DNA from: Hyphomicrobiales bacterium | GTDB lineage: Bacteria > Pseudomonadota > Alphaproteobacteria > Rhizobiales > CAJQND01 | Assembly (NCBI GenBank): GCA_028285595.1 | Contig: JANQOW010000042.1 | Span: forward strand, 1 to 64,000 | Length of the DNA: 64,000 nt | Direction: 5' to 3' | Shown here: in pieces, positions 12,361-18,059 of the stretch | Position numbering within the stretch: position 1 is the stretch's first letter | Layout: each line of letters opens with the position of its first letter | Made by a program: the position numbers and the translations under genes | Notes under the pieces: model-generated | Told to the model about the DNA's origin: nothing | The model's database searches: none | Seen by the model: only the letters and a program-made list of their open reading frames with translations

Positions 12361-13779
12361 GTGAGAACCACCAAAACATATCTCGGCCCAAAACTTCGAC
12401 AGCTCCGTAAAGATGCAGGTCAAACCCAAGCGGAAATGGCCCGGGCTCTGGGCCTCAGTGTGTCCTACGTCAATCTTCTTGAAAACAATCAGCGCAGTTT
12501 GTCCGTTCAAGTTTTGATGCGCGTGTCGGAGGTCTATGGGGTCGAGTGGCGCGACTTGGTCAAGGACACCACTCCAACGAAGCTGGCGGATCTGAGAAAC
12601 GCGTTTCAAGACACAGTCTTCAACGAGAACCGGCCGGACTTGGCCGAACTGCGCGCAAGTCTGGACCACTGCCCCGCCGTTGCTCAAAGCTTGCTCGATC
12701 TGCACAAGGCCTATCGTGGGTTGATGGAACGCACGCTCACGGCCTTTGGAAACGTAAAGTCAGACCAACACCAGCTTGTGGCAACGAGTCCCGAAACCGC
12801 GGTCCACGATTTCTTTCGCCGCGAGCACAATCACTTTCCTGTATTGGAGGAGGCTGCAGAAGATTTCTTCGGTGAGGACGAGGTCGAGCCGGATGAGCTG
12901 TACCATTATCTCAAGTCGCGTCTCCAGACGGGCTTGGACATTTCGGTGAAAACAGTAAACGCAACCGCCTTGCCGAACGCCTTGCGCGTTTATGACCGTG
13001 CCGAGAAACAGTTGCTGCTTGCCGAAACACTTGATTTCCCAAACCGCGTCTTTCAGTTAACCCATATGATCGGCTTGCTTGAGTTTGGTGCTCTCATCGA
13101 CGGTCTGGTCGAGGACGCTCAAATAGCAGAACCGCGCCTGCGCTCGCGTTGCCGTGTGGAACTTGCCAACTATTTTGCGGCGGCATTGCTTATGCCGTAC
13201 GGCGCTTTCTTAGATGAAGCCCAAGCGTGCCACTATGACCTTGATCATTTGGCAGTGCGTTTTCGCGTCTCCTTTGAGCAAGTCTGCCACCGCGTCACAA
13301 CACTGCAACGAGATGGTGCGCGGGGTGTGCCGTTCTTTTTCCTTCGCATAGACCGGGCCGGCAACGTCACTAAGCGGTTTAACTCCACCAGCTTTCATCT
13401 GGCAGACTATGGTGGATCGTGCCCGAAGTGGGACCTTCACATGAGCTTCCGAACGCCTAACCGGATCTTGCCTCAGTTTGTGGAGATGCCCGATGGCTCA
13501 CGCTATTTCACCATCAACAGGACGGTAGATCGACCGAATTCGGACTACCATGCTCAAGACAATTGCTTAGCGATAACACTCGGCTGTTCGATTGAGCATG
13601 CGGGCGAACTCATCTATGCCCAACCGTTTCAGCTCGGCTCTGAATCAATCTTTACGCCTATCGGCATCAATTGCAGGCTGTGCCCGCGGCAAGCATGCAC
13701 ACAGCGCGCCCAGGAGCCCCTTCATTTGGATTGGCCTATTGACGAAGACAGAAAGGGCCGAACCCGGTTTGAAGGCTAG
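12361..13779 (+). CDS. ScfR-type XRE transcriptional regulator
   Basis: A 472-residue regulator of the short-chain fatty acyl-CoA responsive family (relatives: RamB, PccR, MccR). An N-terminal XRE helix-turn-helix spans residues 8-62 (RQLRKDAGQTQAEMARALGL, SYVNLLENNQR). An IrrE-like central domain follows, with RCRVELANYFAAALLMPYG, and a DUF2083-like C-terminus contains the Cys cluster CRLCPRQAC. Known members sense acyl-CoA intermediates and control propionyl-CoA, methylcitrate or glyoxylate-type genes. None of those targets is adjacent. The start is a GTG. Its place between the phytochrome and puc genes may be incidental. Confidence 0.85.
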   Translation: MRTTKTYLGPKLRQLRKDAGQTQAEMARALGLSVSYVNLLENNQRSLSVQVLMRVSEVYGVEWRDLVKDTTPTKLADLRNAFQDTVFNENRPDLAELRASLDHCPAVAQSLLDLHKAYRGLMERTLTAFGNVKSDQHQLVATSPETAVHDFFRREHNHFPVLEEAAEDFFGEDEVEPDELYHYLKSRLQTGLDISVKTVNATALPNALRVYDRAEKQLLLAETLDFPNRVFQLTHMIGLLEFGALIDGLVEDAQIAEPRLRSRCRVELANYFAAALLMPYGAFLDEAQACHYDLDHLAVRFRVSFEQVCHRVTTLQRDGARGVPFFFLRIDRAGNVTKRFNSTSFHLADYGGSCPKWDLHMSFRTPNRILPQFVEMPDGSRYFTINRTVDRPNSDYHAQDNCLAITLGCSIEHAGELIYAQPFQLGSESIFTPIGINCRLCPRQACTQRAQEPLHLDWPIDEDRKGRTRFEG

Positions 13780-14358: not shown

Positions 14359-14538
14359 ATGGCCCACGAAACACAAACCGCCGATCTGGACGACCCTGAT
14401 CGGATCTGGCCCACCGGTCTTACCATCAGAGAATCCGAGGAGATCCACAAGCACATCATTGATGGCTCGCGTGTGTTCTTTTTCATCGCGCTCATCGCGC
14501 ACATCCTGGCGTACTTGTATACGCCCTGGTCCTTCTGA
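14359..14538 (+). CDS. pucB: LH2 light-harvesting beta polypeptide
   Basis: Single-helix antenna protein of 59 residues that binds bacteriochlorophyll in the peripheral LH2 ring of the photosynthetic membrane. The core GLTIRESEEIHKHIIDGSRV, then the membrane helix with ALIAHILAY and C-terminal TPWSF, aligns well with LH2 beta chains. The His of AHILAY is the B850 ligand, the His in EEIHKH is near the carotenoid/B800 pocket, and the Arg in DGSRVF is the residue that hydrogen-bonds B800. It has a polar N-terminal extension of about 19 residues. It is followed 13 bp later by pucA. Confidence 0.96.
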   Translation: MAHETQTADLDDPDRIWPTGLTIRESEEIHKHIIDGSRVFFFIALIAHILAYLYTPWSF

Positions 14539-14551
14539 GGGGAGATAAGTA

Positions 14552-14698
14552 ATGAACCAAGGTAGAATCTGGTGCATAGTGAATCCGACAGTTGGCTTGC
14601 CGCTGTTTCTCGGCAGCGTTGCCATCATCTCATTGATCGTTCACTACTCAATTTTAAGCAGCACAACTTGGATGGCCGCATTTTTCCAAGGTGGCTAG
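14552..14698 (+). CDS. pucA: LH2 light-harvesting alpha polypeptide
   Basis: Alpha chain of LH2, 48 residues, starting [17 protein letters not shown] as in the Rhodopseudomonas acidophila (Rhodoblastus) B800-850 protein. The B850-ligand His falls at residue 31 (SLIVHYSIL) and Trp at 40 (STTW), so numbering is collinear with that protein. The C-terminal pair that hydrogen-bonds the B850 C3-acetyl groups, Tyr44-Trp45 in B800-850 complexes, is Phe44-Phe45 here (MAAFFQGG). B800-820 type chains are Phe-Leu there, so a blue-shifted complex is predicted. A GGGGAG ribosome binding site precedes the ATG. Confidence 0.96.
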
Positions 14699-14814: not shown

Positions 14815-15507
14815 ATGACGTTAAACGTCCGTATCTATGACACGGAGGACAACGCAAAGGCCGCCGATGCGGCGCTCGCCAAAGCCGGGTTTACCGAACG
14901 ATCCGTTTTCCTTCCCAGCAAATCCAAAGGTAAGGAGCGGGCTACGGTCCAAACGGCTATCGAGAAAGGCCAGTTGCCGGCGAGGAACGTGCTAATCTGC
15001 ACACAGACTCTGGAAAAAGGGCGTGCTCTGGTTTCCGTGGAAGCACCTTTTGGGAGCGGGCAAGCCGCGCTCAACATCATGGACGGCATCAAAGGCGTAG
15101 ATGGGGATTTACTTAGCCGTTATGTGCCGAGTGATCCTTCGCCATTCTCTGATAGTCTGGGTTGGAGCACCCTATCGAACTCCGAGCCATCGTCTGGTTT
15201 GCTTCGGCACGACTGGGCGTTCTCCAGGCTCTTTGGCATGGGTTTGCTCAGCGACAAAGCGGCACCATTCTCCTCTATGTTTGGCATGAAGGTGCTGAGT
15301 GCTGCCAAGAAAAATTGGAATTCCAGTTTCGGAATGCCAATGCTGAGCAACAAGGCGGCTCCCCTCTCATCCATGTTTGGAATGACAACCGTTCTCAAGT
15401 CGAAGAGAAACTGGGAGTGGAGTTGGGGCTTGCCACTGTTGTCGAAAAATCCTGCGCCCTTCTCGAGCCTGCTTGGCCTGAAGACGCTGTCTAAGCCTGA
15501 CCGTTAG
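14815..15507 (+). CDS. Unrecognised puc-operon protein with 16-residue C-terminal repeats
   Basis: A 230-residue protein between pucA and pucC that I cannot assign to a named family. Residues 1-95 look like a small alpha/beta domain of the general stress/DUF1269-like type (VRIYDTEDNAKAADAALAKA), which is a weak resemblance. From about residue 106 it is built of repeats. Gly recurs at 141, 157, 173, 189, 205 and 221, an exact 16-residue period, in the pattern [FWL]SSx[FLW]G[ML]xxLS. Two 32-residue double repeats are clear (146-177 and 178-209), starting SDKAAPFSSMFGM and SNKAAPLSSMFGM; a displaced copy has Gly116. The repeats look amphipathic and aromatic-rich, with no obvious long transmembrane helix. 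A GGAGGG-like ribosome binding site precedes the ATG. Context suggests a role in LH2 or membrane organisation. Confidence 0.8.
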   Translation: MTLNVRIYDTEDNAKAADAALAKAGFTERSVFLPSKSKGKERATVQTAIEKGQLPARNVLICTQTLEKGRALVSVEAPFGSGQAALNIMDGIKGVDGDLLSRYVPSDPSPFSDSLGWSTLSNSEPSSGLLRHDWAFSRLFGMGLLSDKAAPFSSMFGMKVLSAAKKNWNSSFGMPMLSNKAAPLSSMFGMTTVLKSKRNWEWSWGLPLLSKNPAPFSSLLGLKTLSKPDR

Positions 15508-15578
15508 GTTGCCTTGGAGCGCGTGGCTGCAGACATGTGATTCAAAATGACTCTGGTCATCGCCCCGGAGGGCGGGAC

Positions 15579-17039
15579 ATGGGTAGATATAGAGAACGTT
15601 TGCTGAGCGTATGGGCCTCGTTAGGCCCTCGGTATATGCCGTTTGCGGACGTTGTCACGCCTGACCTCCCCTTGCATAAGCTTGCGCGTCTTTCGCTCTT
15701 CCAGGTATCGGTTGGCATGACCATGGTTCTCCTTGTGGGAACTCTTAACCGAGTCATGATCGTCGAACTTGAGGTTCCTGCCGCCATCGTGGGCGTTATG
15801 ATTGCGCTCCCCTTGTTGATCGCGCCCTTCCGCACAGTGATCGGTTACAAGTCTGATACGCATAGGTGCGAGTTGGGCTGGCGGCGCGTGCCGTTCATTT
15901 GGAAGGGCACGCTCCTTCAATTTGGCGGCTTTGCTATCATGCCGTTTGCCCTCCTTGTGTTGGCGGGGAAGGGTCAGGCAGATGCGGTGCCAGCTTGGGT
16001 TGGCCAATCGTCAGCCGCGCTCGCATTTTTGTTGGTGGGAGCCGGAGCACATGTTGTTCAAACCACCGGATTGGCGCTCGCCACCGATCTAACGCCGTCC
16101 AAGTCCCATCCCAAGGTGGTTGGCTTTATGTATGTCATGCTGCTTGTCGGCATGTTTGCCAGCGCATTGATATTCGGTGCTGTGTTGGCCGATTTCACGC
16201 CTGGCCGCTTGGTTCAAGTCATCCAAGGGGCCGCGCTTGCCTCTCTGGTCTTGAACAGTGTGGCCATCTGGAAACAAGAGGCGCGGCGTCCACCCCGCGG
16301 TGCGCCCAGGCCAGAGGCAGATCCGTCGTTCCGTGAGTCTTGGGATCGTTTTTGCCAAGGTGAGCACGCCATCAGGCGGTTGGTGATTGTGGGACTGGGC
16401 ACAATGGCTTTCGGAATGGCAGACGTTCTCCTTGAGCCCTATGGCGGGCAAATCCTGAATTGGTCGGTGGCTGATACCACGAAGCTGACGGCTCTGCTTG
16501 CGATTGGCGGGCTGTTGGGCTTTGTCTTTGCATCCCATGTTCTCAAGCCTGGAAGCGATCCTTACCGCCTAACGCAGAATGGTGCGCTGATTGGACTACC
16601 AGCATTCGCGCTGGTAATTGCTGCGGCACCATTGGACTTGAGTGCACCGTTCTTGGTTGGAAACTTTCTGATCGGCTTCGGCGCCGCGGTGTTCGGTCAT
16701 GCGACGCTAACAGCTACGATGAGCCAGGCGCCAAAAGAACAAGCCGGTCTTGCCCTTGGCGCTTGGGGTGCCGTTCAAGCAACAGCGGCGGGCGTGGCGT
16801 TGGCCTTAAGTGGTGCAATTCGCGACATCGTTGGGATATTCATGGCCGGAACGGAGAGCGTGTTTGGGCTGGCCGGTCCGGCGTTGGGATACATCTCCGT
16901 TTATGCGCTTGAGATTGCGCTCTTGCTGATCACGGTGGCGGCCACAATTCCTCTTGTAGGCCGCATCACCAAACATCATCGCACGAATGACAGCGGCGTT
17001 GCTGAGGATGTAACGGCAGCCCGGCCTTCTCAGAGTTAA
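15579..17039 (+). CDS. pucC: PucC, BCD-family major facilitator needed for LH2 assembly
   Basis: Polytopic membrane protein of the bacteriochlorophyll delivery/LhaA-PucC family (major facilitator fold), required for LH2 formation and thought to help deliver pigment or assemble the complex. The 486 residues have about 12 hydrophobic helices. Recognisable segments are HKLARLSLFQVSVGM, GTLNRVMIVELEVPA, GYKSDTHRCELGWRRVPFIW and TGLALATDLTPSKSHPKVVG. The ATG at 15579 follows GGAGGG by about 7 bases and is preferred to an upstream GTG at 15537. It lies 71 bp after the repeat-protein gene and 15 bp before the deformylase gene, so the three are likely one transcript with pucBA. Confidence 0.94.
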   Translation: MGRYRERLLSVWASLGPRYMPFADVVTPDLPLHKLARLSLFQVSVGMTMVLLVGTLNRVMIVELEVPAAIVGVMIALPLLIAPFRTVIGYKSDTHRCELGWRRVPFIWKGTLLQFGGFAIMPFALLVLAGKGQADAVPAWVGQSSAALAFLLVGAGAHVVQTTGLALATDLTPSKSHPKVVGFMYVMLLVGMFASALIFGAVLADFTPGRLVQVIQGAALASLVLNSVAIWKQEARRPPRGAPRPEADPSFRESWDRFCQGEHAIRRLVIVGLGTMAFGMADVLLEPYGGQILNWSVADTTKLTALLAIGGLLGFVFASHVLKPGSDPYRLTQNGALIGLPAFALVIAAAPLDLSAPFLVGNFLIGFGAAVFGHATLTATMSQAPKEQAGLALGAWGAVQATAAGVALALSGAIRDIVGIFMAGTESVFGLAGPALGYISVYALEIALLLITVAATIPLVGRITKHHRTNDSGVAEDVTAARPSQS

Positions 17040-17054
17040 ACATAGGGACCGGCT

Positions 17055-17567
17055 ATGGCGATCTTAGGCATTCTCGAATATCCCGACCCACAGCTCCGCC
17101 TCTCCGCAAATCCGGTCACAGAGTTTGATGTAAGCATGACCCGGCTGGTCGATGATATGATTGAGACGCTTCATGCGTCCAAAGCCATTGGTCTATCTGC
17201 CACCCAGGTGAATGATCAGCGACAGATTTTGGTCATGGACCTATCTGAAAACGCAGAAGCCCCAGAGGTCTATATTAATCCTGAGATCATCAAGAAGGCG
17301 GCTTGGGGGATCGTGGAAGAGAGTTGCCTCTCCGTGCCCGATATCGTTGGCAATGTGTTCAGAGCCACCAAGCTGCAGGTGCGCGCGCAAGATCAGGCAG
17401 GCAACCTTTTTGAGCGAGAGCTTTCGGGGATGCATGCAGTTTGTCTGCAACACGAGATGGATCATCTCGCGGGAAAACTGTTCATCGACAAACTGTCCAT
17501 ATTCCGCAGATTGAGCATTCGCGCCCGCGCCCACAAGAAAGCGCGCGAAAAGAAGGCGGCCGCATAA
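17055..17567 (+). CDS. def: Peptide deformylase encoded in the puc operon
   Basis: Metal-dependent enzyme that removes the formyl group from N-terminal Met of new proteins; 170 residues, typical length. The zinc/iron-binding HExDH motif is intact (LQHEMDHLAGKLF) and the Cys ligand is in EESCLSVP. Motif 1 reads AIGLSATQ and motif 2 ESCLS, where housekeeping enzymes usually have GIGLAAxQ and EGCLS, so this looks like a divergent paralogue. The basic C-terminus (RARAHKKAREKK) may bind ribosome or membrane. It starts 15 bp after pucC. No fmt gene is adjacent, as would be expected for a housekeeping def. A dedicated role in processing antenna N-termini is possible but unproven. Confidence 0.9.
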   Translation: MAILGILEYPDPQLRLSANPVTEFDVSMTRLVDDMIETLHASKAIGLSATQVNDQRQILVMDLSENAEAPEVYINPEIIKKAAWGIVEESCLSVPDIVGNVFRATKLQVRAQDQAGNLFERELSGMHAVCLQHEMDHLAGKLFIDKLSIFRRLSIRARAHKKAREKKAAA

Positions 17568-17610: not shown

Positions 17611-18003
17611 CTACTCCGTTTTGGAGAAGGTTTTCAAGTAAGCGATGACGTTCTGTCTGTCGGCTTCCTTCTTCAGTCCAGGAAAGGCCATCTTGGTGCC
17701 TTTTACATAGCTCCTTGGTTTTGTGAGGTAGAGGTCCAGCGTTTCTTCATTCCAGACAAGGCTCTCGTCGGCTCCCTTCGCCTTCATGGCTTTGGAGTAT
17801 TTGTAACCCTCCATCGAACCAGCTTGGCGCCCGAACAGGTTCACCAGATGTGGCCCAACCTTGTTCTTTTCCTTCATGACCTCATGGCACGCTTTGCATT
17901 TGCGAAACACTTTCTTGCCCTTGTCGATGTCCGGCTCGGCTGCATGCGACAGGCTCGCGAATGTGACGGCGATGATTGAAGTCAAAACTATCTTTGTTTT
18001 CAT
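17611..18003 (-). CDS. Soluble periplasmic cytochrome c (c2/c550 type)
   Basis: Class I cytochrome c of 130 residues with a Sec signal peptide (MKTKIVLTSIIAVTFASLSHA). The heme-binding motif is CKACH and the sixth-ligand Met is in YVKGTKMAFPGLKK. This matches periplasmic cytochrome c2-type donors that shuttle electrons from cytochrome bc1 to the reaction centre, a role supported by context but not provable here. The second Met was chosen because it begins a normal signal peptide with an upstream GAGGA; starting at 18021 adds six residues. It is convergent with def and 56 bp downstream of bciA. Confidence 0.87.
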   Translation of the reverse strand: MKTKIVLTSIIAVTFASLSHAAEPDIDKGKKVFRKCKACHEVMKEKNKVGPHLVNLFGRQAGSMEGYKYSKAMKAKGADESLVWNEETLDLYLTKPRSYVKGTKMAFPGLKKEADRQNVIAYLKTFSKTE

Positions 18004-18059
18004 TATCAGTCTGGTCCTCATTTTGTTTCGTGAGTCATAGAGTTCGTTTGGTCTGCTTG

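Follow-up and report, generated by a model that had tools for sequence, protein, structure and literature searches.

A peptide deformylase gene fixed behind pucC in one lineage of LH2 antenna operons

Introduction

Why should an operon for a light-harvesting antenna carry a gene for a peptide deformylase (PDF)? The question is raised by a locus in the window, that is, the whole stretch of 64,000 nucleotides of Hyphomicrobiales DNA analysed in this study, in which a def gene closes an LH2 operon of the order pucB-pucA-orfE-pucC-def on the + strand (Table 1). In Rba. sphaeroides LH2, the Mg ligand of B800 was modelled as the N-carboxylated Met1 of the alpha chain (PMC8775250), and the B800 Mg of Rps. 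palustris LH2 is likewise bound by alpha-COO-Met1 (PMC9618040). The evidence on N-carboxy-Met1 is conflicting, however: the group is present in structures, whereas mass spectrometry, in the passage of PMC8775250 that cites it, found the Rba. sphaeroides alpha-Met1 without carboxylation. Among open-access full texts, we found no account of a deformylase linked to puc genes, to B800 or to a photosynthesis cluster, and the main text of a survey of accessory PDFs mentions neither photosynthesis nor puc genes (PMC12690207). With the pucC-linked def described here, a known enzyme family gains a new branch that is dedicated to one operon.

Table 1. The LH2 operon of the window and two genes beside it
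Feature	Coordinates	Strand	Product	Basis
regulator	12361-13779	+	RamB/ScfR-type regulator with IrrE-like peptidase domain, upstream of the puc operon	
pucB	14359..14538	+	LH2 beta chain, 59 aa (MAHETQTADLDDPDRIWPTGLTIRESEEIHKH...)	open reading frame; aligns with other LH2 beta chains
pucA	14552..14698	+	LH2 alpha chain, 48 aa	PF00556, 43 bits; aligned with 50+ LH2 alphas
orfE	14815..15507	+	230 aa; folded N-terminal domain of ~100 aa plus 6-7 Ser/Gly-rich repeats of ~16 aa (APFSSMFGMKVLS...)	
pucC	15537..17039	+	LH2-type antenna assembly factor (PUCC family)	PF03209, 482.9 bits
def	17055..17567	+	pucC-linked peptide deformylase, 170 aa, ATG start	PF01327/TIGR00079, clade, signature residues
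cytochrome	17611-18021	-	small c-type cytochrome (cytochrome c550-like), convergent to def	

Results and Discussion

A divergent PDF gene at the end of the LH2 operon

The window def is a complete open reading frame, the product of which matches the PF01327 profile across the whole protein with 153.6 bits (cut-off 22.8) and TIGR00079 with 147 bits (cut-off 103.95). Its AF2 model (pLDDT 94.8) has the PDF fold, the best match in the PDB being E. coli PDF (1icj, TM 0.92). A sequence-only reading of the locus had placed a divergent PDF 15 bp behind pucC, and both points proved right: the pucC stop ends at 17039, leaving a gap of 15 nt, and motifs I and II read AIGLSATQ and ESCLS, with motif III, HEMDH, intact. 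The protein therefore departs from the exact PDF consensus (G-Phi-G-Phi-A-A-x-Q together with EGCxS). As the exact motifs are not essential for PDF activity according to a 2025 survey (PMC12690207), the departure makes it a variant and does not exclude it from the family. The metal ligands (the motif II Cys and the His pair of HExxH), the catalytic Glu and the motif I Gln are all present, and Q51, C91, H133, E134 and H137 are invariant in the PDF alignment; judged by these residues, the window enzyme looks catalytically competent. Its C-terminal helix (residues 149-169) is amphipathic and basic.

The housekeeping def lies elsewhere in the genome

No fmt gene adjoins the window def, which the sequence-only reading had taken as a sign that this is probably not the housekeeping copy. 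The window genome (5.96 Mb in 170 contigs, 99% complete) contains exactly two PF01327 matches: the window def and a def on another contig (G000:C115:22046), which is directly followed by fmt and has the canonical motifs GIGLAAPQ, EGCLS and HEIDH. The window def is thus a paralogue and not the housekeeping copy, which also disposes of the objection that it might be the only def in the genome. All ten sampled genomes with a pucC-linked def (see below) likewise have at least one fmt-linked def. The fmt-linked def is present too in the def-bearing genome G088, a single contig that is 100% complete, so that the pairing is not a binning artefact. Among the 27 LH2 genomes without a linked def that were searched whole, none has a pucC-type def elsewhere. 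In one group of such def-less genomes (f74: L212, L213, L220, L222, L223, L226 and L227), two or three tandem defs stand beside fmt; some of the extra copies have the motif II EACLS, EQCLS or ERCLS and represent another accessory PDF cluster.

Linkage of def to one LH2 lineage

The def protein was scanned against 85k species genomes and the best 80 relatives were taken. Eighteen of these 80, counted as contig loci, are directly behind an LH2-type pucC, and nearly all the rest are beside fmt. For a sample chosen without regard to def, pucC was searched in 385 evenly drawn genomes of the class, 398 of the phylum and 397 of the order. Wherever pucC was at least 70% identical to that of the window, def was next door (10/10 sampled genomes, the window's included; nine in the class sample and the tenth in the order sample), whereas def was adjacent in none of the 31 other LH2 operons, in which pucC is about 54-65% identical and an alpha gene is adjacent. 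Among the LhaA-type loci inspected, none had def beside it. The linkage between pucC and def is not due to chance and is specific to one LH2 lineage. The sequence-only reading had raised the idea of a deformylase dedicated to LH2 N-termini and had suggested a survey of its co-occurrence with puc operons: the divergent paralogue stands, its co-occurrence with one lineage of LH2 operons is strict, and its action on LH2 chains is what the operon linkage suggests.

Distinct pucC-linked PDFs number 26, two of the ten sampled genomes repeating contig loci. In these operons def is always on the strand of pucC, typically 3-17 nt behind it (the gaps of L104, L028, L036 and L106 were left out because of apparent errors in start or alignment assignment); by its conserved position and strand across species, def is a component of the LH2 operon. 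A spread to Longimicrobiales or Anaerolineae, as the MAG labels of the small contigs L031 and L035 would have it, was not accepted as evidence; L035 is nearly identical to the alphaproteobacterial L108 and its label is thus likely a binning error.

Origin of the pucC-linked PDFs

A maximum-likelihood tree was built from 109 PDFs. All 26 pucC-linked proteins fall into a single clade (SH-aLRT 99), which lies within the fmt-linked, i.e. housekeeping, PDFs of gammaproteobacteria; the housekeeping PDF of the window genome groups with alphaproteobacteria. In the pucC tree, the window pucC groups with LH2 pucC, apart from the LhaA type, and 25 of the 26 def-bearing operons fall into one clade (support 100), the exception being L056, from a gammaproteobacterial MAG, in which pucC is distant and def branches early. 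These data demonstrate that a gammaproteobacterial def of the housekeeping type became fixed behind an LH2 pucC and is now found in alpha- and gammaproteobacteria. The simplest story would be that an LH2 operon in gammaproteobacteria captured a housekeeping def and that the operon was then transferred to several alphaproteobacterial families. A plasmid or phage source for the window def was considered and rejected, the best such matches being about 50% identical, with no close relative.

The operon has clearly moved between classes, as it would if def were a neutral or selfish gene transferred along with it and without any functional tie to LH2. We nevertheless regard such hitchhiking as very improbable. 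The gene has stayed intact across 26 divergent sequences, and dN/dS is 0.06-0.35 among pairs with unsaturated dS, showing that it is under purifying selection; L056 keeps def despite its distant pucC and with no orfE nearby; and no broken or missing copies occur within the lineage in the 10/10 sampled genomes.

Changes at the substrate groove and in the C-terminal helix

The 26 pucC-linked PDFs were compared with 82 other PDFs using E. coli numbering; the counts come from related sequences and the small p-values are therefore descriptive only. The catalytic and metal-binding residues Q, E, C, H, E and H are retained in 26/26 pucC-linked proteins. The Gly of motif II, G89, is replaced by S, R or T in 26/26 and in 0/82 of the others, and the same holds for the change of M38 to L or V (26/26 versus 0/82), of A47 to S or C (24/26 versus 0/82) and of G43 to A or S (23/26 versus 0/82). 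In addition, the position of E. coli Arg97 is Val in 19/26 and Tyr/His145 is Arg in 23/26. The G89 replacement separates the pucC-linked PDFs from all 82 used for comparison and is not unique to them, since some of the tandem accessory PDFs mentioned above also carry altered motifs at this site.

These changes (G89, M38, A47, G43, 97 and Y145) are located in or next to substrate-groove segments: G43 and I44 belong to a segment that lines the groove (PMC3101196), and G89 and R97 were placed at the groove by docking (PMC4964514). For Gly41 of AtPDF, the equivalent of G43, dramatic effects were reported only for bulky replacements (PMC3101196); in the pucC-linked PDFs this residue is Ala, Ser or Gly. 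The C-terminal helix, which in other PDFs is the part that associates with the ribosome (PMC12690207, PMC5591237), contains a mean of 0.5 acidic residues in pucC-linked proteins versus 2.6 in the others, and its hydrophobic fraction is 0.45 versus 0.29.

Might an enzyme with Ser or Arg in motif II have lost efficient hydrolysis, to serve as an assembly chaperone that binds the LH2 N-terminus, or to perform N-carboxylation itself? A Gly that is invariant in the 82 other PDFs is gone from every pucC-linked one, and altered-motif PDFs include type 3 enzymes that are weakly active or inactive (PMC5591237). However, no sequence has lost a metal ligand, the catalytic Glu or the Gln, and accessory PDFs without the full motifs can be active (PMC12690207); the loss of deformylase function is in our estimate unlikely. 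Nor do we expect that def is an inhibitor-resistant spare, an accessory PDF of the actinonin-resistant type that happened to lodge in the LH2 operon. Accessory PDFs can lower susceptibility to PDF inhibitors through Arg replacement (PMC12690207), and Val at the Arg97-aligned position of most pucC-type PDFs would agree with this. Yet most of the housekeeping PDFs compared also lack Arg97 (Y/F), so that the loss of Arg is not specific to the recruitment, and it would go unexplained why, in two classes, def is strictly linked to a single LH2 lineage, making this origin improbable.

The alpha-chain N-terminus, B800 and a possible role for def

The alpha chains of def-bearing operons start with Met-Asn in 25/25 intact N-termini, and methionine aminopeptidase should spare such starts. 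N-carboxylation of Met1 requires a free alpha-amine, so the formyl group must be removed first. The sequence-only reading had imagined an enzyme that tunes, or competes for, the formyl group making the B800 site; this does not fit the modelled ligand, N-carboxy-Met, which needs a free amine (PMC8775250, PMC9618040), and it is more likely that a deformylase would provide the precursor of the B800 ligand than that it would compete for formyl.

In the def-less operons L167-L170, the first ten alpha residues are identical to those of def-bearing alphas, from which it follows that this B800 site does not in general depend on def. Carboxy-Met1 was modelled in the LH2s of Rba. sphaeroides and Rps. 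palustris, which to our knowledge also have no puc-linked def, so the housekeeping PDF can serve. With identical decapeptides on both sides, the alpha N-terminus was discarded as a discriminator between def-bearing and def-less operons. A short alpha chain or orfE as the feature served by def was likewise discarded, as L056 combines def with a tailed alpha of 68 aa and no orfE nearby.

We hold with roughly even confidence that the pucC-linked enzyme is a PDF dedicated to the antenna, with nascent LH2 chains as its substrate, and that it serves efficiency or timing in one LH2 lineage without being universally required. By its place in the operon, def would be co-expressed with pucB, pucA and pucC, and its product may remove the formyl group from newly made LH2 chains, which are very abundant, while PucC assists in their assembly. 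Deformylation of the alpha chain (Met1-Asn2) would leave a free Met1 amine able to take up CO2, giving the N-carboxylate (carbamate) modelled as the B800 Mg ligand; on the beta chain, which mostly starts with Met-Ala, Met-Ser or Met-Thr, it would permit Met removal. The enzyme may raise the speed or the completeness of these steps, or act where or when PucC inserts the chains.

The same position would also provide co-induction if def merely added capacity, an ordinary active PDF furnishing extra deformylation for massive antenna synthesis with no special substrate and no tie to B800. The retained catalytic residues and the def-less operons sharing the alpha N-terminus are compatible with this explanation, which we consider possible and clearly less probable than a dedicated role, as dosage alone leaves unexplained both the clade-wide changes in the groove, at positions invariant in the 82 other PDFs, and the remodelled C-terminal helix. 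A narrower version of the antenna-dedicated role, which we advance only tentatively, is that the pucC-linked PDF belongs to the B800-ligand pathway, deformylating alpha-Met1 at the site of assembly for N-carboxylation; the altered C-terminal helix would then attach the enzyme to PucC or to the membrane and not to the ribosome. If true, pigment occupancy of the antenna would depend on a dedicated N-terminal processing enzyme. Def-bearing and def-less LH2 with identical alpha N-termini offer two natural backgrounds against which deformylation can be judged as a possible committed step. More generally, the pucC-linked branch suggests that selection has favoured a function in one group of accessory deformylases at least, and is a case of an essential enzyme of translation that was duplicated to serve what would be a dedicated pathway.

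Relation to known PDFs and to other LH2 operons

The closest known relatives are type 1B PDFs encoded beside fmt, such as the Def proteins of E. coli and P. aeruginosa (1icj, 1ix1, 1n5n), which have the same fold (TM 0.92-0.93) at 46-49% identity, share the metal ligands, HEMDH and the length of the window protein, and constitute its ancestor group in the tree. The window def differs in not being beside fmt, in the changes from GIGLAA to AIGLSA and from EGCLS to ESCLS, in Val at position 97, in a basic residue in place of Tyr145 and in a basic-hydrophobic C-terminal helix almost devoid of acids. Plasmids, integrons and Vibrio also carry accessory PDFs (Def2; PMC12690207), again in addition to an fmt-linked PDF and with a divergent C-terminal tail. 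Unlike plasmid and phage copies, to which its identity is about 50% at best, the pucC-linked def is fixed behind pucC and forms one clade. Cyanophage and chloroplast PDFs are tied to the photosynthetic proteins D1/D2. The cyanophage S-SSM7 PDF and chloroplast PDF1B thus resemble the window def in their tie to photosynthetic proteins, but they are other PDF branches and concern photosystem II or organelle proteins, not purple-bacterial LH2. The PDF of Synechococcus phage S-SSM7 figures in PMC5591237.

The pucBAC(DE) operons of known purple bacteria share with the window pucB, pucA and pucC, along with one more protein associated with LH2, but have no def. Alpha chains are 65-133 aa long with C-terminal tails in the sampled def-less operons versus 47-50 aa in nearly all def-bearing ones; that of the window starts with Met1-Asn2, is free of the tail and has F44F45 where standard LH2 has the B850 hydrogen-bonding pair Y44W45, which predicts a blue-shifted, B800-820-like complex.

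The product of orfE has no match in Pfam or NCBIfam. Its AF2 model reaches a pLDDT of ~90 at residues 1-95 and is unstructured past ~105, in the repeat region; when the model was used for a structure search, no hit reached E 0.001. The gene is kept in nearly all def-bearing operons, and many def-less LH2 operons have a relative of it behind pucC, so that orfE is more widespread than def among LH2 operons. In Rps. palustris LH2, an extended, BChl-binding gamma subunit partly encircles the complex, has six repeats of ~15 residues and contacts the alpha carboxy-Met1 (PMC9618040); orfE, a folded domain plus repeats, looks like it in overall design.

Some further features of the neighbourhood were observed. 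A second pucC homologue is present on another contig of the window genome (G000:C16:132853) and is 51% identical to the first, within the LhaA range; LH1 and LH2 assembly factors are thus probably separate in this genome. In L108 and L111 the operon reads pucA-orfE-pucA-pucC-def, the two pucA copies that flank orfE reflecting an internal pucA duplication. Upstream of the window's puc operon lies the RamB/ScfR-type regulator gene of Table 1, and homologues of the cytochrome c550-like gene convergent to def are also found near def in L029 and L035.
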